Positions 15,026 through 26,163 of a DNA stretch of 26,260 nt are shown here, piece after piece. Every line of letters starts with the position of its first letter. Within the stretch, counting starts at the first letter, position 1. A program made the position numbers and the translations under genes. The notes under the pieces were generated by a model. It was not told where the DNA came from, ran no database searches, and worked only from the letters and a program-made list of their open reading frames with translations. The DNA comes from a virus, in the IMG/VR virus record IMGVR_UViG_3300013132_000226, positions 1 through 26,260 of that record; one strand, given 5' to 3'.

Positions 15026-15574
15026 TTATCTATATCTTGGATTGGGTTGAGTTACACCTACAGGACAATCTACTTCGGTTTTATGAGCAATCTTTCTTGC
15101 CATTGCGTCTTGAATTCTTTTATTAGGTGGTTGCCCAATACCCAATTCATCGTGAGTATAAAAGCCATACAGCCAAATTGTTCCACCATCTAACTTGTAG
15201 ACAATGCTTAAATCTAAGGTGATATGTGCATGTTTTAAGTTGGGCACTGACCTTATGAACAATCCAGTACCTAAAAATAATTTATCACTTTTTCCAAATG
15301 GTTCAATGGGATTCCATCTTTTTAATTCCATGAAATCTCTAAACTTAGATCGAATGGCACTATAGGGTCTTACTTTGGCAAAGTAAGTTTCTTTATAACT
15401 ATCACAACGTCGAAATACAGTTTCTCTTTGGTTTGAGTTATTGCGATCAACCGAAGACAAACCTACCTCAGCTAGTATTTGATCAGCAGTTAACTCTTCG
15501 GACCAACAATTGGTATCTTGATCTTCCGATAAAAAATCAATTATTTTTGGTAGTATTACTTCTGAGATTTTCAT
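15026..15574 (-). CDS. Unrecognised protein with capsid-targeting-like N-terminus
   Basis: I do not recognise this 182-residue protein. It begins MKISEVILPKIIDFL, with an I-S-E triplet, followed by an acidic linker and a folded-looking alpha/beta region with strands LFIRSVPNL, HITLDLSIVYKL and IWLYGFYTHDELG. It is the last of three coupled genes whose products share this type of N-terminus; the start overlaps the upstream stop as ATGA. A role inside the virion or as a partner of the amidoligase-like protein is inferred from the operon. Confidence 0.6.
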   Translation of the reverse strand: MKISEVILPKIIDFLSEDQDTNCWSEELTADQILAEVGLSSVDRNNSNQRETVFRRCDSYKETYFAKVRPYSAIRSKFRDFMELKRWNPIEPFGKSDKLFLGTGLFIRSVPNLKHAHITLDLSIVYKLDGGTIWLYGFYTHDELGIGQPPNKRIQDAMARKIAHKTEVDCPVGVTQPNPRYR

Positions 15575-18500
15575 GACAATTCTCTTTCAACACGACCTAT
15601 TGTGTCGTGTAGGGTATAATTTGGAAACTCGTCTTCGTTGTGCCCCATATCTCTAAGATATCTAATAGCATTTAATTCTGCACTATCCATGTAGTCAGGT
15701 CTATGCAAGGTGTCACTGGGCAAGTTGAATCTATAACTAGATTCGCTGCCAGGTGTGTTTGTTCTTAAAATAAATCTTCCTTGTGGAGAATCGGGATAGT
15801 AGTCTCTGCCCGGCACATATCTAGGCTCAGAAGGCCACCAGGTTGATCTAGTTGCCGGAACAACTTCTAATTCGGCACCATTGCCCAATGTTAATCTTCC
15901 TTGACGTACTTGTTCTGAGGCCCAGGCACGAGCAGCAGCATTGGCATCACCTTGATTATTTCGATTCCAAAAACGATGCACTTCTTCACCATCAACTAGA
16001 ATGCTCCATTGTACACTTCCATTTTGGGTGGGAGGAGTATCGCCGCGACGTATAGGCTCAACACGGAATTGATTGGGTTCCAGAACACCATAGCCATTAT
16101 TGTATAGCCACATAGAGGCACGACTCTCAGCTTCTTGCTGACTTATACCGGTGTTAGTTCCTTGGTGTACTTCTTCACCATTGGCTAACACAATTCGCCA
16201 ACCTGATATAATACTAGGGTCTGTTGTTCTTGTAGAGCTTGCGGGACGAATTGTTCCTGTGCTCGGAGGCTGTTCTCTTACACTGTAGGAAGTATTGGGA
16301 TTACCATTGTTTCTAACCCATCGCAGACCTACTTCATTGGCATCTTGTTGATTATTTTCTCGACTGAGATAAAATTCGTAAGCAACTTCACCGTCGGCAC
16401 TATCTACAATCTGCCAAAGTCTATTGTTCGAAGTCGACGAATCAGTTTGTGCGGCCTGCTGTAGTTGACCGGTACCTGCAGGTTCAGATTGAGTATTAAT
16501 CGAACTTTCTGGATAAACAACTTGCCCATTACGATCTCTTAACTGATATCTTTCTGGATCAGAATATATTCCTGTCGCTGTTGCAATGCGTTGTTGAAAC
16601 TGTTGAATCGCATCTGCCACTGTTCTTGCTCGAATACCTGCTATATTGTATCTGTCCCGGGTATCATATATCGTATAGGTTTCTGGTTGTTGTGGTTGTC
16701 CGCGTTCTTGGCGTGGATCTGGTCTCAAAACATAATCCCCAGGATACTGTCTGTTCCATTGATCCAGTACAGTACGAGCATCATCTCCATTTGCAGCCAT
16801 AAATCGATATAATGGCGTGTTGACATCATCGATAAAGGCAATATACGAATTACCATCAGGGTTGCTGGGTCTACCATTTAGCACTGGCGGAGGTATATTG
16901 TTTTGCGTCCGTGAATATGAAGTTCTTGGTGTCACTGGTTCAAGTCTATACAATTGAGTCTGAGTATCTATTCCCATACTAGTCAGCCATCGACGATATG
17001 CAGTTTCGGCTTCCTGTGGAGTGTTTCTTGTAAAATAATTTATAATAGCATCGTCACTATTACGTACAATAGCATAATTTGAATCAGGCTCGTTTTCGGG
17101 GGCAACTAGTGTGCGTTTTGGTGGCAGTGCAGTGGCAACTAAATCTTCAGGTGCTATATTATACCAGTCTCGTCCTGACATTCTAGCCGCACGTATAGCT
17201 TCTTCTGCGCTTTTGGCTGATACTTCTACCGCTACGTAATTTTGTCTACCCACATCAGATTTTTTCATCACACGCCAAGTGTACGTTTCTCCGGGCTTTA
17301 ATCCGGTCTTTTTAAATTTCCTTGCTTGACGTATAGTTTTTAGAAAACTCATTAGTGCTGATCGTGGTAATCTGGTTTCCTTAGAACCAGGAGGCGGTGG
17401 CTCACCACCTGCATACTGAACAAAGTATTTTATAACATCTTCCTCGGCTGGGTCTTGGGGGATACGTGATCGCAACATTTTAGCTAATTTAACTTTATAT
17501 TCTCTTTGGTATGCGTTGGGATCACTGGCAGCATCTAAGACCACAACAAATCTTCTAAGAAAATCAGACAATTCTTCAGCGGTTTTTTCATTCCAATCTC
17601 CGCCAGGACTACGAAACTCAATTCTAAAATCTTCTCTGTCAATTATATAATGCACACTGAAATGATGATTAGATGCTTTAAACTTTCCTAGTGTGTTTAA
17701 TGCCTGTAGTGCTTTTGCAGAAAAACCGCGACGCATTTGCTCTAGATATAATTCCGCCTTTTCAGGAGTGACGTCACCACTTACGCTTTTCAATGCTGGG
17801 ATAGAATAAGTGTTAGTTGCTCGTTCAAACTTATTCAATACATAGTCGTCGCCTAACAACAAAATCAATTTCATGTAATCGATTTCGTCCGGATTGAATC
17901 CTTTTAGTCCTACATTCATATGCAATCCGGTACTGCCACGTAATTCTTTTTCATCACCTTTGAAGGTGTAAGCACCGGATTTTTTCATAAAATCTTTAAT
18001 ACTGGCAATCTTTTCAACCATTTCATCAACCGAGATCGGTGGACTAATAATTTCAATACCGTAATCCCCGGGTTCACGTGGACGATTTAAACTACTGTCG
18101 GGTTCAATGATCCAATAACGATCCTTGGGATCGGCATCTACTGCTACCCGCGGAACACCATGATAACGTGTACTGAATCTTATTGGAGTATTAACATATC
18201 CTTCAAGTTGGTCGGCGATTCGTTGTAGTACTTCATGGGACAAACTATCGGTATTAGTAGAGGGCCATCGTGCTTCATATCGTCTAGCAACATCTGACAT
18301 TTGGTCAAGTCCCACCGATGATAACCACTCACCTTCGTCGGCAGTGCCAAAAAAGTTTGACAATGCGTGATCTCGAGCATTTGAATAGTAGGGCTCAATC
18401 TTATCGTCTTCGATTACAGAAACAGCATCTAGGTAATCTCCTCGGCTAATTTCTTCTTCATCATCTTCGAGATTTAAAATCGATCTAATGTCATCCTCTG

Positions 18501-18843
18501 TCAGATTGTAAATATAGTCCCCGATTTCAGCATTGGAATTTCTGTCCCAATATTGATCGAACTGTTCCGCAGTCCATTCAGCCAATCCGTCCTGAAGCTC
18601 TTGTTCTAGTCTGTTTAAAAATCCATTGCTATTAGAGTCATGCTGTGAGAAAAACTCAAGGATGTTATCGATACTCTCAGTGTCTTCGTCCTCTATTACA
18701 CCACTAGAAAATCCAGGATAGTACATTTCGAACTCTAACCCAGTGGTAGCTGCTTCTACTTTGGAAGCAGCACGAACCAAGGCCTTTGGTCCCATACGAA
18801 TTTCGTTGATTAGATTGTCTTCGAATAACTCGTGTATTCTCAT
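15571..18843 (-). CDS. 1090-residue amidoligase-like protein with tandem repeats
   Basis: Two parts are visible. Residues 30-450 match the amidoligase (COOH-NH2 ligase, glutamine-synthetase-like) pattern: GLEFEM at 35-40, EPDSSL at 247-252, YGIEIISPP at 261-269, TGLHMNVG at 305-312 and RIEFRSPGGD at 407-416. Known members join amines to carboxyl groups using ATP, for example in peptide tagging or cell-wall linked chemistry. Residues 521-1080 hold eight degenerate repeats of 45-60 residues, each with an aromatic-x-I start, an EA/DA helix ending in W or R, and a final strand. The N-terminus MRIHELFEDN is like T4 capsid-targeting peptides. Both ends overlap neighbouring genes as ATGA. Amidoligase assignment is fairly sure from motifs; the target and the function of the repeats are unknown. 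Confidence 0.75.
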   Translation of the reverse strand: MRIHELFEDNLINEIRMGPKALVRAASKVEAATTGLEFEMYYPGFSSGVIEDEDTESIDNILEFFSQHDSNSNGFLNRLEQELQDGLAEWTAEQFDQYWDRNSNAEIGDYIYNLTEDDIRSILNLEDDEEEISRGDYLDAVSVIEDDKIEPYYSNARDHALSNFFGTADEGEWLSSVGLDQMSDVARRYEARWPSTNTDSLSHEVLQRIADQLEGYVNTPIRFSTRYHGVPRVAVDADPKDRYWIIEPDSSLNRPREPGDYGIEIISPPISVDEMVEKIASIKDFMKKSGAYTFKGDEKELRGSTGLHMNVGLKGFNPDEIDYMKLILLLGDDYVLNKFERATNTYSIPALKSVSGDVTPEKAELYLEQMRRGFSAKALQALNTLGKFKASNHHFSVHYIIDREDFRIEFRSPGGDWNEKTAEELSDFLRRFVVVLDAASDPNAYQREYKVKLAKMLRSRIPQDPAEEDVIKYFVQYAGGEPPPPGSKETRLPRSALMSFLKTIRQARKFKKTGLKPGETYTWRVMKKSDVGRQNYVAVEVSAKSAEEAIRAARMSGRDWYNIAPEDLVATALPPKRTLVAPENEPDSNYAIVRNSDDAIINYFTRNTPQEAETAYRRWLTSMGIDTQTQLYRLEPVTPRTSYSRTQNNIPPPVLNGRPSNPDGNSYIAFIDDVNTPLYRFMAANGDDARTVLDQWNRQYPGDYVLRPDPRQERGQPQQPETYTIYDTRDRYNIAGIRARTVADAIQQFQQRIATATGIYSDPERYQLRDRNGQVVYPESSINTQSEPAGTGQLQQAAQTDSSTSNNRLWQIVDSADGEVAYEFYLSRENNQQDANEVGLRWVRNNGNPNTSYSVREQPPSTGTIRPASSTRTTDPSIISGWRIVLANGEEVHQGTNTGISQQEAESRASMWLYNNGYGVLEPNQFRVEPIRRGDTPPTQNGSVQWSILVDGEEVHRFWNRNNQGDANAAARAWASEQVRQGRLTLGNGAELEVVPATRSTWWPSEPRYVPGRDYYPDSPQGRFILRTNTPGSESSYRFNLPSDTLHRPDYMDSAELNAIRYLRDMGHNEDEFPNYTLHDTIGRVERELS
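15604..17283 (-). repeat. Eight degenerate protein repeats in the amidoligase gene
   Basis: At the protein level repeats begin near residues 521, 589, 666, 722, 809, 881, 945 and 1022. Shared features are YTW/YAI/YIAF/YTI/WQI/WRI/WSI/FIL openings, an Asp/Gly turn, a Gln/Glu-Ala helix and a closing strand. Pro/Gln/Ser-rich linkers separate several of them. The copies are old: no DNA repeat is visible. Confidence 0.65.
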
Positions 18844-20297: not shown

Positions 20298-20741
20298 TTA
20301 GAAACTGGTACGAATGCCCATAGAAACAATAGTTGCTTCCTGTGACTTAATTTTGTCCTCGGGCATGATACGATTTGCATCAGCTACAATTGAAATTTTC
20401 TTAGTAATTGGATAAGAAACGCCGAGACCAACTGTGCCAGCAAATCCATTACGTCCGCGCTCGACATCTAGATAACTAAGACCAAGTTGTCCCGAAACTC
20501 CAAGTTTACCGAGTTTAAAAATTTCGTAAGAGCCAAGAACACCATAAGAATCAACATCTGTGCCTTTGGCAAAACGATCAAATGTGACAGCAACAGTGGC
20601 TTTCTCTACACTGGCACTTAATGCCAAACCACCACCATTAATTTTATTACTGGTGTCACGGTTGTAATTTACTGTTAGATCAGCAGCCGATGCTGTACCT
20701 GCGGCAGCAGCGATAGCGATTGCAGCTAGAACTTTCTTCAT
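20298..20741 (-). CDS. Phage-encoded outer-membrane beta-barrel protein
   Basis: The 147-residue product has a clear Sec signal peptide (residues 1-19, MKKVLAAIAIAAAAGTASA, with A-S-A before the cut). Alternating hydrophobic and polar strands follow (LTVNYNRD, LALSASVEKATVAVTFDRF, VSGQLGLSYLDV, GTVGLGVSYPI), ending in Phe (GIRTSF), the usual recognition end for the BAM complex. Size fits a small 8-stranded barrel after export. It places the host among Gram-negative bacteria. Possible roles are blocking receptor sites for other phages or stabilising the envelope, both inference. It stands as a single-gene unit: consensus TTGACA-17-TATAAT promoter, AAGGAG ribosome binding site and strong terminator. 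Confidence 0.8.
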   Translation of the reverse strand: MKKVLAAIAIAAAAGTASAADLTVNYNRDTSNKINGGGLALSASVEKATVAVTFDRFAKGTDVDSYGVLGSYEIFKLGKLGVSGQLGLSYLDVERGRNGFAGTVGLGVSYPITKKISIVADANRIMPEDKIKSQEATIVSMGIRTSF

Positions 20742-20767: not shown

Positions 20768-20796
20768 ATTATATATGAACAAACAAATTATGTCAA
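20768..20796 (-). promoter_or_regulatory. Perfect consensus sigma70 promoter for the barrel gene
   Basis: TTGACA (20791-20796), 17-base spacer, TATAAT (20768-20773). The leader of about 20 bases carries AAGGAG before the ATG at 20741. Confidence 0.85.
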
Positions 20797-20799
20797 AAA

Positions 20800-21318
20800 T
20801 TAGTTTGTCATAACACGGCTGACCGCTGTCATTACAGCAGCGATACGGCCAATGTCTCTTAGTTGCTCCACACTATAACCTTCTTTTTTCAAGGTATCAT
20901 AGTGGGCTCGAACACAAAACTCGCATTTACCCACAATACTGGCAGCAAGGCTATATGCTTCAAAACGAGCCTTAGTAGTTCCACCATGTGTGGCAATAGC
21001 ATTCATACGTAGTTGGGCGGGTAATCCCGACAACTGTTCGTCCGCGGCCATTTCAACATAGGGGTACCAGGTATTGTTCATGGACATCAATGATGCTGCG
21101 GTAATAGCAGCATTGACTTCTGCTTGACTCGAACCAGCTATTTGACCACTAATCCATGTCCATAATTTACTATTGCCTGTAGCAAAGGATGCGGCCAATG
21201 CTACACATTGTGCTTCCTCGAGATCTAATGTGCTACGTTTTACCACTGCGTCCAGATTAAGCCTTGTGTCCTTAGCATAGTCTGGGATTGCTTCCTTTAA
21301 TTGATCAACCCAATTCAT
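20800..21318 (-). CDS. ahpD: Alkyl hydroperoxidase AhpD
   Basis: The 172-residue helical protein has the AhpD active site E120-x11-C132-x2-C135-x3-H139 (KCEFCVRAHYDTL), the same spacing as in mycobacterial AhpD. AhpD keeps AhpC reduced, drawing electrons from a lipoyl protein, and has weak peroxidase activity itself. Length is near the family norm of about 175. The start overlaps the end of the TerC gene by 14 bp, with AAGGA some 12 bases upstream. Co-occurrence with an AhpC of the AhpD-dependent type in the same operon supports a working pair. Such a gene is unusual in a phage and was probably acquired from a bacterium. Confidence 0.9.
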   Translation of the reverse strand: MNWVDQLKEAIPDYAKDTRLNLDAVVKRSTLDLEEAQCVALAASFATGNSKLWTWISGQIAGSSQAEVNAAITAASLMSMNNTWYPYVEMAADEQLSGLPAQLRMNAIATHGGTTKARFEAYSLAASIVGKCEFCVRAHYDTLKKEGYSVEQLRDIGRIAAVMTAVSRVMTN

Positions 21319-21988
21319 TATTACGATTTTTCCTTTTTAGTTTTAGATTACGACGTATTTCAAACCAATAGTATTGTTTTCCTAACAGGACTGCACCCAT
21401 AAAGAACGGGAATAATGTTTCCAGTTTTGGAAAGTCTTTCCACTCTTCGGCAATAAACGGTTCTCCAATAATCATTTTACAGGCCACAACAAACAGCACA
21501 AAACTACCAATGTAAACTGCATTAGGATATCGTTTTAACAAACGTGCAATTACAGTGCTGCCAAACAAAATAATAGGTACACTAACTAGCAATCCAAAAA
21601 TTACCAACCACATATTACCATCAGCAGCAGCAGCAATACCAAGTGCATTATCTACACCCATAACTGCATCTGCGACTACAATAGTGCTGATAGCACCCCA
21701 GAAAGTCGATTTAGCTGCAATATCATGTTCCTTTTCGCTCTGTACTAATGTCCAAGCAATGTAAACCAATAAAAGCCCGCCCACTAATTTAAGTCCAGGA
21801 ACCATTAGTAGATAGGTCAACAATGCTACTGATATAAATCTTACTGCCACAGCACCGAATGTACCCCACATAATTGCTCGACGCTTAAGATGCTCGGGCA
21901 ACTTATTCGCAGCCATACCAATTACTAAGGCATTATCTCCGGCTAATACTACATCAATCATGATGATTGCCAGTACGGCCCAAATCAT
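21305..21988 (-). CDS. TerC/YjbE-family integral membrane protein
   Basis: The 227-residue protein has about seven hydrophobic segments and the two family motifs DVVLAGDNALVIG (residues 12-24) and DAVMGVDNAL (107-116), whose acidic residues are thought to bind metal. TerC proteins of the YjbE type export manganese in Bacillus and are linked to metallation of secreted proteins; in others they accompany stress genes. Beside AhpC and AhpD, a manganese or metal-balance role during peroxide stress is likely but inferred. The ATG at 21988 has no good ribosome binding site. An AGGAG element lies just upstream at the end of the aldolase gene, where an unusual ATA or TTA start would be better spaced, so the N-terminus may be slightly longer. 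Confidence 0.88.
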   Translation of the reverse strand: MIWAVLAIIMIDVVLAGDNALVIGMAANKLPEHLKRRAIMWGTFGAVAVRFISVALLTYLLMVPGLKLVGGLLLVYIAWTLVQSEKEHDIAAKSTFWGAISTIVVADAVMGVDNALGIAAAADGNMWLVIFGLLVSVPIILFGSTVIARLLKRYPNAVYIGSFVLFVVACKMIIGEPFIAEEWKDFPKLETLFPFFMGAVLLGKQYYWFEIRRNLKLKRKNRNNELG

Positions 21989-21996
21989 TTCTAATG

Positions 21997-22644
21997 TTAT
22001 TTTACAACTCCTTTACTTGCTAATACGATCTTACAAATATGTTCGAGCCGTTCTATATGCTCAAACGCACGCCATGGACTAGTGTCCACTGCTACTACAC
22101 CATGTCGATCCATGCCCACAACATGATTTAGCACACTGCCATTATTGGTCAATCCAAATTCTGGAATAACCGCATCGGCTAGTTCTTGGCTAATCACAGG
22201 CACAACTGGTACAGTACGGCCCACTCTTGTATATCGACCCAGTTCGGGAAAGTCCTTTACTAGGTCACTGAGCTCAATTCCGGCATACATTGCGGCCACA
22301 GTATAAGTTGGATGAAAGTGAAGAACCACACGAACTTCAGTATCGATACTTTTTTGTAATCCAAAATGTAGTGGTATTTCTCCGCTAACTTTTAGATTAT
22401 CACTGATATCGGTGTATTCAGTTTCCTGCCAAGATTCTCTAATAAAAGGAGGAACTGCATGGGTTTCTTGAATTACACGAATACGTTTAAACATCTCAGG
22501 TTGTAGATATTGTTTACGTATACCAGTGGGTGTGATATAAAAGTGATCACGATCATGCCAACGTATACTGGCATTACCATCTCTGGCTGTGATCCAGTTA
22601 CGTCGATATGCTTCTTGGAACAAATCAGAGATGGTTTCTAACAT
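21997..22644 (-). CDS. Class II aldolase/adducin-family protein
   Basis: The 215-residue protein has the fuculose-phosphate aldolase family layout: GNAS at residues 23-26 and TPTG at 38-41 for phosphate binding, SGEIPLHF at 87-94 with the catalytic-type Glu89, the metal site HFHP at 109-112 and a third ligand His181 (DRHGVVAV). All zinc ligands and the Glu appear intact, so an active enzyme on a phosphorylated sugar or related carbonyl compound is likely; the substrate is not known. It begins one base after the AhpC stop, so it belongs to the same operon. Its part in peroxide defence is unclear. Confidence 0.85.
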   Translation of the reverse strand: MLETISDLFQEAYRRNWITARDGNASIRWHDRDHFYITPTGIRKQYLQPEMFKRIRVIQETHAVPPFIRESWQETEYTDISDNLKVSGEIPLHFGLQKSIDTEVRVVLHFHPTYTVAAMYAGIELSDLVKDFPELGRYTRVGRTVPVVPVISQELADAVIPEFGLTNNGSVLNHVVGMDRHGVVAVDTSPWRAFEHIERLEHICKIVLASKGVVK

Positions 22645-22645
22645 A

Positions 22646-23212
22646 TTATACCTTTAGTGTATCGCCGCCGACGGCACGATTGCAAGCACAGAGTTCGCCA
22701 GTTTGGAGACTGTCGAGAACACGTAGAGTTTCCTCGGGGCTACGACCAACATTCAAGTTGTTAACGGTGACATGTTGAATTACATTATCGGGGTCAACAA
22801 TAAAGGTAGCACGTAGAGCAGCACCAGCAGGATTATAAAATACACCCAGTTGATCCACTAGCCCAACAACGGAACTGTCACGATCCCAAAAGGTACGAAC
22901 TGTGTCAGCAAATTGAATGTGACGGATCTTCTGTAGATCTGGATGGGCTTTTTGCCAGGCCACTTTGCAGAACTCATTGTCGGTACTACCAGTTAGTAGA
23001 ACTGCATCACGGTCTTCAAAGTCTTGGAACAGTTTATCATAGGCCACGATCTCTGTGGGGCAAACGAACGTAAAATCTTTTGGGTAATAGACAATTACTT
23101 TCCATTTACCTTTAAAACTTTCTTCATTGATTGTGAAGAATGCATCGTCGGGTTGACCAGGACGTACACCGGTTACTACAAATGGCTCGAGGCGATCGCC
23201 AACAGTTTTCAT
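22646..23212 (-). CDS. ahpC: Peroxiredoxin AhpC (AhpD-dependent type)
   Basis: The ATG at 23212 is chosen because AAGGAG lies six bases upstream; an upstream in-frame start lacks this. The 188-residue enzyme has the peroxidatic Cys51 in FTFVCPTE and the C-terminal pair Cys175 and Cys177 in LCACN, as in mycobacterial AhpC, which uses AhpD for reduction. It reduces hydrogen peroxide and organic peroxides in the cytoplasm. It heads the operon AhpC - aldolase - TerC - AhpD. A TATAAT element with a 15-bp palindrome in the position of its spacer lies upstream, suggesting regulated expression. Probably of bacterial origin; not a usual T4-like phage gene. Confidence 0.93.
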   Translation of the reverse strand: MKTVGDRLEPFVVTGVRPGQPDDAFFTINEESFKGKWKVIVYYPKDFTFVCPTEIVAYDKLFQDFEDRDAVLLTGSTDNEFCKVAWQKAHPDLQKIRHIQFADTVRTFWDRDSSVVGLVDQLGVFYNPAGAALRATFIVDPDNVIQHVTVNNLNVGRSPEETLRVLDSLQTGELCACNRAVGGDTLKV

Positions 23213-23241
23213 AAATTCTCCTTGATTGAAAAACAATAAAA

Positions 23242-23266
23242 ATTATACTTATTTGTCTAGGACAAA
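23242..23266 (-). promoter_or_regulatory. Promoter with palindromic operator before ahpC
   Basis: TATAAT reads leftward at 23242-23247. The palindrome TTTGTC-TAG-GACAAA (23252-23266) covers the spacer just upstream. No good -35 hexamer is visible, as expected for an activated or repressed promoter. The binding protein is not identifiable here. Confidence 0.5.
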
Positions 23267-23667: not shown

Positions 23668-24390
23668 TCAATTCCAATAACGACTGTTATCCAATTGATC
23701 CCAATATTTTTGATTATTACGATTTATAAAATTTTTCATCAAGTATTGTGCCATACCAAAGTATCCCATTTTACGAAATCTACGGCTGTCTTGCCCAAAA
23801 TAATGATCAATAATTCTAAATTTTTTTGGATCGTATTGTCTCGATAAAAAATAATCTTCTGAGGTAGAATATTTTTCCGGGAAGCCGCCTAGCTCTTCGA
23901 AACGATCGCGTCGTGTTAGCATAAAAGCACCAACGGCAAATGGTGAAAAATATTTCAACACGTTGTTGATACAATTAAAAATTGTAAATCCAATCTTTGT
24001 TCTTATATCGTTGTCATAGCATTTGACATTAAGCCCAACGAGATCAAGATCTTCTGTATAAATTTTATCAACCGAATCATGAATAACATTATCGTCGAAG
24101 AATCTAACATCTGCATCGATGAACAATATATAAGGAGTTGTGCTTAATTTTGCTCCATTATTCTTAGCGATTGAAACAGGTCCTCCGGTGATTATTTCTA
24201 AATTTAGCCCATGACTATTATCCAATATTACTTGTCTGGTATTATCAGTGGAACAGTCGGCAATGATGATTCTTGTATCATCTATGTTTTGTTGACGCAA
24301 AGAATTTAACAAATGATGAATATAATTTTCTTCATTTTTACAAGGAACAACTACAGTAATTAACTCAGAAATTTTTATTGTTTCACGCAT
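23668..24390 (-). CDS. Family 2 glycosyltransferase
   Basis: The 240-residue protein has the GT-A fold signature: VVVPCKNEENYI at residues 13-24, IADCSTDNT at 44-52, the metal-binding FIDADVRF near 90-97 and GAFMLTRRDRFEELGGF before a SEDYFLS acidic motif that normally holds the catalytic base. It transfers a sugar from a nucleotide sugar, probably to a lipid or polysaccharide of the cell envelope. There are no strong transmembrane segments, so it would act on the cytoplasmic side. AAGGAC lies just before the ATG. It follows an LpxH-like gene and a hidden 56-residue gene. Surface modification of the host (receptor change) is the likely use in a phage; inference. Confidence 0.88.
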   Translation of the reverse strand: MRETIKISELITVVVPCKNEENYIHHLLNSLRQQNIDDTRIIIADCSTDNTRQVILDNSHGLNLEIITGGPVSIAKNNGAKLSTTPYILFIDADVRFFDDNVIHDSVDKIYTEDLDLVGLNVKCYDNDIRTKIGFTIFNCINNVLKYFSPFAVGAFMLTRRDRFEELGGFPEKYSTSEDYFLSRQYDPKKFRIIDHYFGQDSRRFRKMGYFGMAQYLMKNFINRNNQKYWDQLDNSRYWN

Positions 24391-24545
24391 TGTCCTTCTA
24401 CCTTAAAATTTTCAAACTTCAACTTCCAACGTATAGAAGCTAATACTTGTTCACAGATCTGTTGATTGGGAAACTGTAATTCTATTCTTCCCGGAACGTC
24501 TTTTGGATTGCTGATGTGTACTGCTATCAATATCATTAACCACAT
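24375..24545 (-). CDS. Hidden 56-residue gene bridging two envelope genes
   Basis: The frame starts inside the end of the LpxH-like gene (94-bp overlap), fills the 60-bp gap and ends inside the glycosyltransferase start. A full AAGGAG ribosome binding site lies seven bases before its ATG. The product begins with a hydrophobic segment (MWLMILIAVHIS) and continues as a normal-looking protein (DVPGRIELQFPNQ, then ILASIRW-like and KFENFKVEGQ segments). No family is recognised. Confidence 0.6.
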   Translation of the reverse strand: MWLMILIAVHISNPKDVPGRIELQFPNQQICEQVLASIRWKLKFENFKVEGQCVKQ

Positions 24546-25296
24546 CGTCGCTCTCCTTAGTCCATGTCACGATTTCCCAACGACCGTCCCAATGTTCTAC
24601 TAATGCGGTCATTGATTCGACCCAATCACCATCGTTCATATATATTACACCATCGATTTCTTTTATTTCTGCGTGATGAATGTGACCGCAAATGACACCG
24701 TCAAATCCACGCTTTTTACAATATCCTGCTAGATTTTGTTCAAACTTAAATATAAAATCCACAGCACGTTTGACACGATGTTTAAGAAATAGGCTTAAAC
24801 TAAAATATCGAAAACCCAGTTTATGTAATAGCCAATTAAGCCTTGTATTCACACGCAAAATAAAATCATAAGATCGATCACCTAACATGCTTAGCCATGG
24901 TGCTAATCTTGTAATACCATCAAATAAATCCCCATGTACCACAAGATAGTGTCGGCCATCAATGCCTATATGTTCGGTTTGATTATGTATCTCAATTTGA
25001 CCAAAACTTATTCCTAATGGGATCATCGGACGTAAAAATTCATCGTGATTACCTGCTACATAAACTACTCGAGTACCACGTTTAGCATGACCTAACACAC
25101 GGCGAACTACATTGGTATGACTTTGCTTCCAACGCAATCTATTTTGATTTACTTTCCATCCATCAATAATATCACCGACTAGATAAAGTGTATCGCAGGT
25201 GTTATGTTTTAAAAAATTGTTTAACTGCTCGGCCTTACAATCTTTTGTACCGAGATGCACATCTGACACAAATATGGAACGGTATGTTCGTTGCAT
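24451..25296 (-). CDS. LpxH-like metallophosphoesterase
   Basis: The 281-residue protein shows the UDP-2,3-diacylglucosamine pyrophosphatase-type metal site: SDVHLG at 11-16, GDIIDGW at 41-47, GNHDE at 82-86, VHGDLFD at 120-126 and GHIHHAE at 204-210, plus NDGDWVES. The amphipathic, aromatic helices between residues 130 and 180 fit a lipid-facing insertion. LpxH cuts UDP-diacylglucosamine in lipid A synthesis; close relatives beside glycosyltransferases act on other phospho-lipids, so the exact substrate is open. The last 40 residues are Ser/Lys-rich and overlap the hidden 56-residue gene. It begins the envelope module, with a possible TTGTAA...TATACA promoter upstream. Confidence 0.82.
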   Translation of the reverse strand: MQRTYRSIFVSDVHLGTKDCKAEQLNNFLKHNTCDTLYLVGDIIDGWKVNQNRLRWKQSHTNVVRRVLGHAKRGTRVVYVAGNHDEFLRPMIPLGISFGQIEIHNQTEHIGIDGRHYLVVHGDLFDGITRLAPWLSMLGDRSYDFILRVNTRLNWLLHKLGFRYFSLSLFLKHRVKRAVDFIFKFEQNLAGYCKKRGFDGVICGHIHHAEIKEIDGVIYMNDGDWVESMTALVEHWDGRWEIVTWTKESDDVVNDIDSSTHQQSKRRSGKNRITVSQSTDL

Positions 25297-25746: not shown

Positions 25747-25777
25747 ATAAAAAAATAGGCCCCGAAAGGCCTATTTT
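25747..25777. terminator. Symmetric terminator with 10-bp stem
   Basis: AAAATAGGCC and GGCCTATTTT form a perfect stem with a 6-base loop. The leftward transcript continues into T7, so it should stop transcripts from the gene at 25905-26078; by symmetry it could act rightward too. Confidence 0.9.
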
Positions 25778-25904
25778 GGTAAGTTTGATTACAAGGTCTT
25801 TCCTACCCCGGCTTAGCCTCAAGCGGCTAAAGCAAATACCTCTTCATTGGCATTTATTGTTTTTGCTAGAATTACGTTCTTCGCCTATCGTGTTGTCCAG
25901 TTGT
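25778..25904 (-). other. Structured 3' untranslated region, no gene seen
   Basis: This stretch lies between the 57-residue gene and its terminator. It holds a hairpin with TTAGCC/GGCTAA arms (25813-25818 and 25825-25830, extendable with one bulge) but no convincing coding frame; the longest start gives eight codons. It could be a 3'-derived small RNA or plain untranslated region. Confidence 0.4.
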
Positions 25905-26078
25905 CTATTTCACGCCAATCGATACTGTTTCGGGCCCTTCATTAAGAGACTGCAAACGTTCTCTACTTTGCTGTACCCACATACAAACAGTTAGATTATC
26001 TGTGTCTTCGCTGACTGTGTCTACTACCCACTGACAAATTTCTCGACTTTGACTGTGATAACCACATAACATGTTCAT
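25905..26078 (-). CDS. Small Cys-containing protein, 57 residues
   Basis: The product starts MNMLCGYHSQSRE and contains three cysteines (5, 15 and 32) and four tryptophan/tyrosine residues. AGGAG lies five bases before the ATG, the best ribosome binding site in this part of the window. A promoter about 90 bases upstream and a terminator downstream make it a single-gene transcript with a long leader. No family is recognised; a small host-takeover protein is one possibility. Confidence 0.65.
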   Translation of the reverse strand: MNMLCGYHSQSREICQWVVDTVSEDTDNLTVCMWVQQSRERLQSLNEGPETVSIGVK

Positions 26079-26101
26079 ACAATCTCCTAATGGTGGACCC
26101 G

Positions 26102-26120
26102 GGGAGGTACTGCCCCTCCC
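26102..26120 (-). promoter_or_regulatory. GC-rich hairpin in a phage leader
   Basis: GGGAGG (26102-26107) and CCTCCC (26115-26120) form a strong hairpin with a 7-base loop, about 20 bases upstream of the AGGAG site of the 57-residue gene. It stands out in AT-rich DNA and carries no T-run, so it is more likely to stabilise or control the message than to end it. Confidence 0.5.
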
Positions 26121-26163
26121 GTCTTGCTCGTCTTTCGACTTCCTTCATACAACCATATACTAC

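Follow-up and report, generated by a model that had tools for sequence, protein, structure and literature searches.

A peroxidase gene, ahpC, and the gene of its reductase partner, ahpD, very probably make up an antioxidant cassette that belongs to large phages, has an interior open to additional genes and would be fed with electrons by the host. The pair is obligate, its catalytic residues are kept, its phage copies fall into a group without bacterial members, and the aldolase and TerC genes that accompany it are optional; we therefore read it as a phage-owned cassette whose interior accepts genes. The DNA that we analysed (hereafter the window) is a linear fragment of 26,260 bases from one IMG/VR record. 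A preliminary description had proposed that the window encodes a complete operon against peroxide and metal stress, whose four genes might form one protective pathway and would spare the phage a host AhpF.

Four genes in the window and their catalytic residues

As listed in Table 1, the window encodes AhpC, a class II aldolase, a TerC/YjbE-type protein and AhpD in this order, all on the minus strand, and all four Pfam matches are above the family cut-offs. The junctions measure +1 bp (ahpC/aldolase), +8 bp (aldolase/TerC) and -14 bp (TerC/ahpD, i.e. a 14-bp overlap), so the four intact, co-directional genes spaced by -14 to +8 bp are there as first described. We place the start of ahpC at the ATG downstream of AAGGAG; a TTG at 23236 was rejected, as it merely gives a longer mechanical ORF.

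Table 1. Genes of the cassette and candidate control elements in the window
Feature	Position	Strand	Evidence
ahpC, AhpD-dependent-type peroxiredoxin, 188 aa	22646..23212	-	Pfam AhpC-TSA 1.8e-20
Class II aldolase (FucA/RhaD/DrdA-like fold), 215 aa	21997..22644	-	Pfam Aldolase_II 9e-25
TerC-family membrane protein, YjbE subfamily, putative Mn/metal transporter, 227 aa	21305..21988	-	Pfam TerC 1e-43
ahpD, reductase partner of AhpC, 172 aa	20800..21318	-	Pfam CMD 4e-13
Putative cassette control region	23242..23265	-	palindrome TTGTCCTAGACAA 23253-23265, then TATAAT (-10-like) 23242-23247
Perfect sigma-70 consensus promoter, TTGACA-17-TATAAT	20768..20796	-	12/12 matches; consensus match only

The two redox proteins bear out what had been said of them, namely a three-cysteine, AhpD-dependent AhpC and an AhpD with an intact E-C-C-H site. 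AhpC has the peroxidatic Cys51 within FVCPTE and the resolving Cys175 and Cys177 within ELCAC (a CxC motif), and both motifs are retained in 187 of 196 phage copies. Its best PDB match is the AhpC of Mycobacterium tuberculosis (2bmx, 1.3e-38); it scores far below the cut-off of the AhpF-type AhpC model TIGR03137 (108 vs 272 bits), the AhpD-dependent type being closest. Relative to bacterial homologues, phage AhpC contains a short insert. The active site of AhpD (Glu120, Cys132-x-x-Cys135 and His139) is complete, and the motif is retained in all 202 phage copies; the best PDB match is M. tuberculosis AhpD (1gu9, 5e-23). AhpD stays under the cut-off of the NCBIfam AhpD subfamily model TIGR00777 (116 vs 192 bits) and clears that of the core-domain model TIGR00778 (31.4 vs 27.8), and on these scores we class it as an AhpD-like partner and leave it outside TIGR00777.

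Linkage, gene order and distribution

We counted linkage in dereplicated viral loci with 3.5 kb of flank on both sides. AhpD is present at 42/42 AhpC loci and AhpC at 30/30 AhpD loci on viral contigs, an association that far exceeds chance, and AhpC precedes AhpD at every locus, phage (190/190) or bacterial (64/64). The other two genes behave differently: the aldolase adjoins the pair at 12 and TerC at 4 of the 42 AhpC loci, and AhpCD is found near 18 of 32 aldolase-anchored loci (absent from 14) and near 1 of 19 TerC-anchored loci (absent from 18).

The space between ahpC and ahpD varies likewise. Among 139 dereplicated phage loci, the two genes are directly adjacent in 54, and the gap was found to hold an aldolase in 35 (a count biased upward because some loci were fetched through the aldolase), an SGNH-type protein in 23, TerC in 7, as well as homing endonucleases and other genes (the names SGNH and homing endonuclease were read from the sequence). 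The SGNH-hydrolase-like protein is small (GDSIAVG...) and lies in or near the gap, e.g. at loci L224 and L149; it occurs near ahpC in 36 of 116 dereplicated loci and is thus commoner there than the aldolase, again with names read from the sequence.

Six further records have all four genes on one strand and in one neighborhood, and three arrangements are seen among them: the exact order of the window in three phage records (IMGVR 3300018050_001924, 3300017917_000733 and 3300046786_000293), AhpC-TerC-aldolase-AhpD in two, and TerC after AhpD in one. The search for the same gene order elsewhere, which the preliminary description had put forward, thus did return other cases. These recurrences, together with a TAATG stop-start overlap at the ahpC/aldolase junction in about 30 loci and the purifying selection on all four genes (see below), speak for a true four-gene stress operon, in which TerC would adjust manganese or metalate secreted proteins and the aldolase would remove a toxic sugar phosphate or aldehyde, acting with AhpCD against one infection-linked stress. 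We consider this quite unlikely, given how seldom the aldolase and TerC flank the pair, how many of their loci have no AhpCD nearby, the shifts of internal order, and the many unrelated genes that fill the same gap. The same counts go against the claim that the four genes form one pathway. Taken together, linkage, gap contents and varied orders therefore show that AhpC-AhpD is the sole obligate unit and that its interior is a site where genes come and go.

In uncultured viral contigs, the AhpC scan returned at least 599 stretches and the AhpD scan 168 relatives, and the AhpC-AhpD pair is found in more than 100 other uncultured phage sequences. Cultured phages gave no AhpD match, AhpC matches that were all below 60% identity (best about 32%) and a single aldolase match of 23%; we therefore found no isolate with the cassette. 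The pair is a widespread phage antioxidant cassette, of which the aldolase and the metal transporter are frequent but optional extras.

Phage context of the fragment

The cassette is flanked by genes of a DnaB-type (T4-type) helicase, a primase, UvsW and a phrog_1250 protein, with phage-core genes on both sides, which upholds the reading of the region as phage and not as host chromosome. UvsW and the phrog_1250 protein share about 50% identity with their counterparts in PA5oct-like Pseudomonas jumbo phages, so the fragment probably comes from a far larger phage. We also tested 29 phage records in which AhpCD or one of the satellite genes is present (most are longer than 90 kb, up to 343 kb), and found the gp23 capsid gene in 12 and a terminase gene in 16 of them; the cassette genes are carried by bona fide phage genomes.

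Several other features of the window were observed. An intact-looking permuted two-piece tmRNA (25751-26154, minus strand; Rfam tmRNA_permuted 109.5 bits, beta_tmRNA 86.6 bits), overlooked by ARAGORN, is unusual in the length of its intervening stretch, and its tag reads ...ANEEVFALAA; its type hints at a betaproteobacterial host. Two-piece tmRNA genes are already known in aquatic phages (PMC9004378). A 1,090-aa protein (15571-18843, minus strand) contains a putative amidoligase domain (PF12224, 2.6e-7) and, after it, a long repetitive region of low complexity. A metallophosphoesterase (24451-25296, minus strand) and a glycosyltransferase (23668-24390, minus strand) have copies in other phages that are 74-82% and 71-74% identical, respectively, and the two move jointly, adjoining the cassette or TerC (e.g. 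phage loci L103, L267 and L291).

Evolution and origin of the pair

We built trees from 126 phage and 49 bacterial pairs, the bacterial sample being from Pseudomonadota. A branch with support 99 separates the phage AhpC proteins from the bacterial ones; the phage AhpD proteins are set apart likewise, with a weak support of 37. With AhpC and AhpD joined, for which we used 61 of the phage pairs and the 49 bacterial ones, the phage group stood apart with support 100. In the phage copies, the median dN/dS of each of the four genes falls between 0.08 and 0.09; all four are therefore working genes under purifying selection.

Among bacteria, the closest relatives are ahpC and ahpD genes that lie side by side in Burkholderiales, and identities between phage and bacterial proteins are about 60-66% for AhpC and 50-62% for AhpD. 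An AhpD match of any kind was found in 40 of 399 Burkholderiales genomes, and a close one in about 23. We searched about 700 Pseudomonadota genomes for a host pick-up: no host chromosome had the same four genes at >85% identity, and the best bacterial AhpD is 62% identical, one contig-end match aside. The latter, an 80% AhpD match (L167:6001-6468; MAG REEB434, contig JAGWWC010000055.1), was set aside. It lies at the extreme end of an 8-kb betaproteobacterial MAG contig, after iscS-like DNA, and an AhpD gene of this type is absent from all 25 family relatives of the MAG (25/25); it is probably an assembly chimera or a phage trace.

These data bear on whether a host chromosomal stress operon was recently captured by chance, or a host contig misfiled as viral. 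Bacterial ahpC-ahpD operons share the gene order, the nearest relatives are betaproteobacterial and the tmRNA of the window is of betaproteobacterial type, all of which would fit such an origin. It is nevertheless highly improbable in view of the phage-core genes on either side of the cassette, the capsid and terminase genes in cassette-bearing records, the fully supported separation of the phage copies from bacteria in the joined tree, and the distance to the best bacterial AhpD.

Aldolase

The assignment of the aldolase to class II, made at the outset, is borne out by its Pfam match. Residues E89, H109, H111 and H181, which we take to be the catalytic Glu and the three metal-binding His of FucA, are invariant in 68 phage homologues, in keeping with the class II aldolase superfamily. 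An AlphaFold model (pLDDT 89.9) has FucA, RhaD and the deoxyribose-phosphate aldolase DrdA of Bacillus thuringiensis among its top Foldseek matches. No NCBIfam equivalog cut-off for a substrate class (FucA, MtnB, OtnC, RU1P aldolase and others) was reached, and a sequence search of the PDB gave no match. A close relative was found in one of 349 Burkholderiales genomes; it is 49% identical and chromosomal as judged by its neighbors.

A role of the aldolase in sugar-phosphate or nucleotide metabolism is plausible. Aldolases without AhpCD (loci L169-L244) often adjoin genes of NrdA, NrdB, glutaredoxin, thioredoxin or QueE (names read from sequence), and within 5 kb of AhpCD loci we found dCMP deaminase (17/116), glutaredoxin (13/116) and NrdB (12/116). 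Such neighbors, and the presence of DrdA among the top fold matches, would suit a deoxynucleotide-supply module in which AhpCD shields ribonucleotide reductase and thiol donors while the aldolase handles a pentose or deoxysugar phosphate, e.g. the radical-SAM by-product 5-deoxyribulose-1-phosphate, which would be salvaged or disposed of. We regard this as unlikely: the fold matches fail to separate FucA, RhaD, DrdA and MtnB, the equivalog models add no decision, the NrdA, NrdB, glutaredoxin and QueE identities rest on a reading of the sequence, no nrd gene adjoins the cassette in the window, and the argument from neighborhood is weak because large phages often have nucleotide genes.

TerC and the putative control region

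TerC passes the YjbE subfamily model TIGR03717 (204 vs 134.8 bits), as expected from its earlier naming as a TerC/YjbE-type transporter. Within the window there is no Rfam match at gathering score to the Mn riboswitch yybP-ykoY, which is typical of YjbE genes and not required for them. The proposed link to metal stress is a family-level inference, which we do not consider supported. The place of TerC in the cassette is facultative.

Relative to the ahpC ATG, the putative control region lies about 30-53 nt upstream. Its palindrome, TTGTC-N3-GACAA, is exact in the window. Of the 131 dereplicated upstream regions, 15 contain it with at most one mismatch, compared with 0.6 in shuffled sequences, a count that is inflated by related phages, set against shuffles that keep base composition only, and obtained from the same sequences in which the motif was first noticed; for these reasons we treat the palindrome as a lead and a possible operator. 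In the 15 loci it stands about 46-64 nt before ahpC, often with a TATAAT-like box after it. A late promoter, TATAAATA, was also tried before ahpC and rejected (no enrichment, 7 vs 6.0 expected). At the other end, the sigma-70 promoter lies just after ahpD and is aimed at the next gene, which encodes a YfaZ-like OMP (20298-20741), and for this reason it is likely to mark the downstream border of the cassette.

In a wider proposal, the aldolase and TerC would form, together with the ahpC and ahpD that bracket them, a module of large phages that combines redox, metabolite and metal functions and is both selected and co-regulated. The TTGTC-N3-GACAA palindrome would mark the promoter of this module, the aldolase would clear a reactive sugar phosphate arising from nucleotide or radical-SAM chemistry, and TerC would tune manganese, protecting the deoxynucleotide supply of the phage under peroxide. 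We give this combination little credence.

Proposed mechanism and electron source

For the phage-owned pair with its variable interior, the bacterial enzymes provide a template. In Burkholderia thailandensis, AhpC uses Cys57 and the resolving Cys171/Cys173 and is reduced by Cys131/Cys134 of AhpD; electrons pass from NADH through Lpd and SucB to AhpD, and thioredoxin works too, less well (PMC6626918). Since every catalytic residue of the B. thailandensis proteins is kept, we conclude by homology that the phage pair would be a peroxidase of the same kind. AhpC would reduce hydrogen peroxide and organic hydroperoxides, and probably peroxynitrite, via Cys51, with Cys175 and Cys177 as resolving cysteines, and would be re-reduced by the C132-x-x-C135 site of AhpD.

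AhpD would most likely receive its electrons from dihydrolipoyl proteins of the host (SucB/Lpd, with NADH). The view that the operon is complete and makes the phage independent of its host holds in part: AhpD does take the place of AhpF, but AhpD itself needs re-reduction, which in the characterised Burkholderia and mycobacterial systems comes from SucB/Lpd with NADH (PMC6626918). We searched for AhpF, Lpd and TrxB in the 29 phage records and found no full-domain Pyr_redox_2-type reductase, only short Rossmann fragments; some of these records are incomplete, which lessens the weight of the negative. Because none turned up, the cassette is likely still to depend on the host for its electrons (NADH via Lpd/SucB).

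If expressed in infection, the cassette would keep the cell and the thiol- and radical-dependent machinery of the phage working as peroxide rises, at a time when the host is no longer able to respond by itself. The gap between the two genes takes up an aldolase most often, TerC sometimes, and also the SGNH-type hydrolase and homing endonucleases; the inserted genes would be co-transcribed passengers with a benefit of their own.

Comparison with known systems

Phage antioxidant genes are usually reported singly. Here, an enzyme and its dedicated reductant entered large phages as an inseparable pair, which is kept under strong selection and has diversified apart from the bacterial copies sampled. 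Two questions become testable, i.e. the productivity of infected cells under peroxide and the use of electrons from the 2-oxo-acid dehydrogenase complexes of the host. A side yield is an aldolase family that is widespread in phages and almost missing from the sampled Burkholderiales (the single close relative above).

Antioxidant genes of phages as such are already known: auxiliary genes of this kind occur in more than 10% of the freshwater phages recovered in one survey, which covers ferritin, superoxide dismutase, glutathione peroxidase, thioredoxin and glutaredoxin and whose main text has neither AhpC nor alkyl (PMC6802176). In putative Microcystis viruses, of a different host type, an ahpC gene has been reported and interpreted in terms of oxidative stress, and the accessible part of that report mentions no AhpD partner beside it (PMC12542629). 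The match that we found in a cultured Microcystis phage is a selenocysteine PrxU-type protein (32% identity). We found no description of a phage ahpC-ahpD pair in the openly accessible literature that we searched.

As for the optional genes, methylotroph phages of Lake Baikal carry a class II aldolase of unknown role, which resembles the present one by description and for which the accessible part of the report gives no link to AhpC or AhpD (PMC7678222). The TerC of the window, which passes the YjbE model, shares the TerC fold with MeeF, MeeY and YjbE; MeeF and MeeY metalate exported Mn enzymes, and TerC relatives move or insert manganese (PMC10550928). It differs from MeeF/MeeY in that the window has no Mn riboswitch, and its function in phages is putative.

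The highest similarity is to the AhpC-AhpD systems of B. thailandensis and M. tuberculosis, which have in common with the phage pair the three catalytic cysteines, the CxxC with Glu and His, and the ahpC-ahpD order (PMC6626918). Control by OxyR is a feature of the bacterial ahpC-ahpD genes, whereas the phage copies form their own group and have extra genes inserted between the two.
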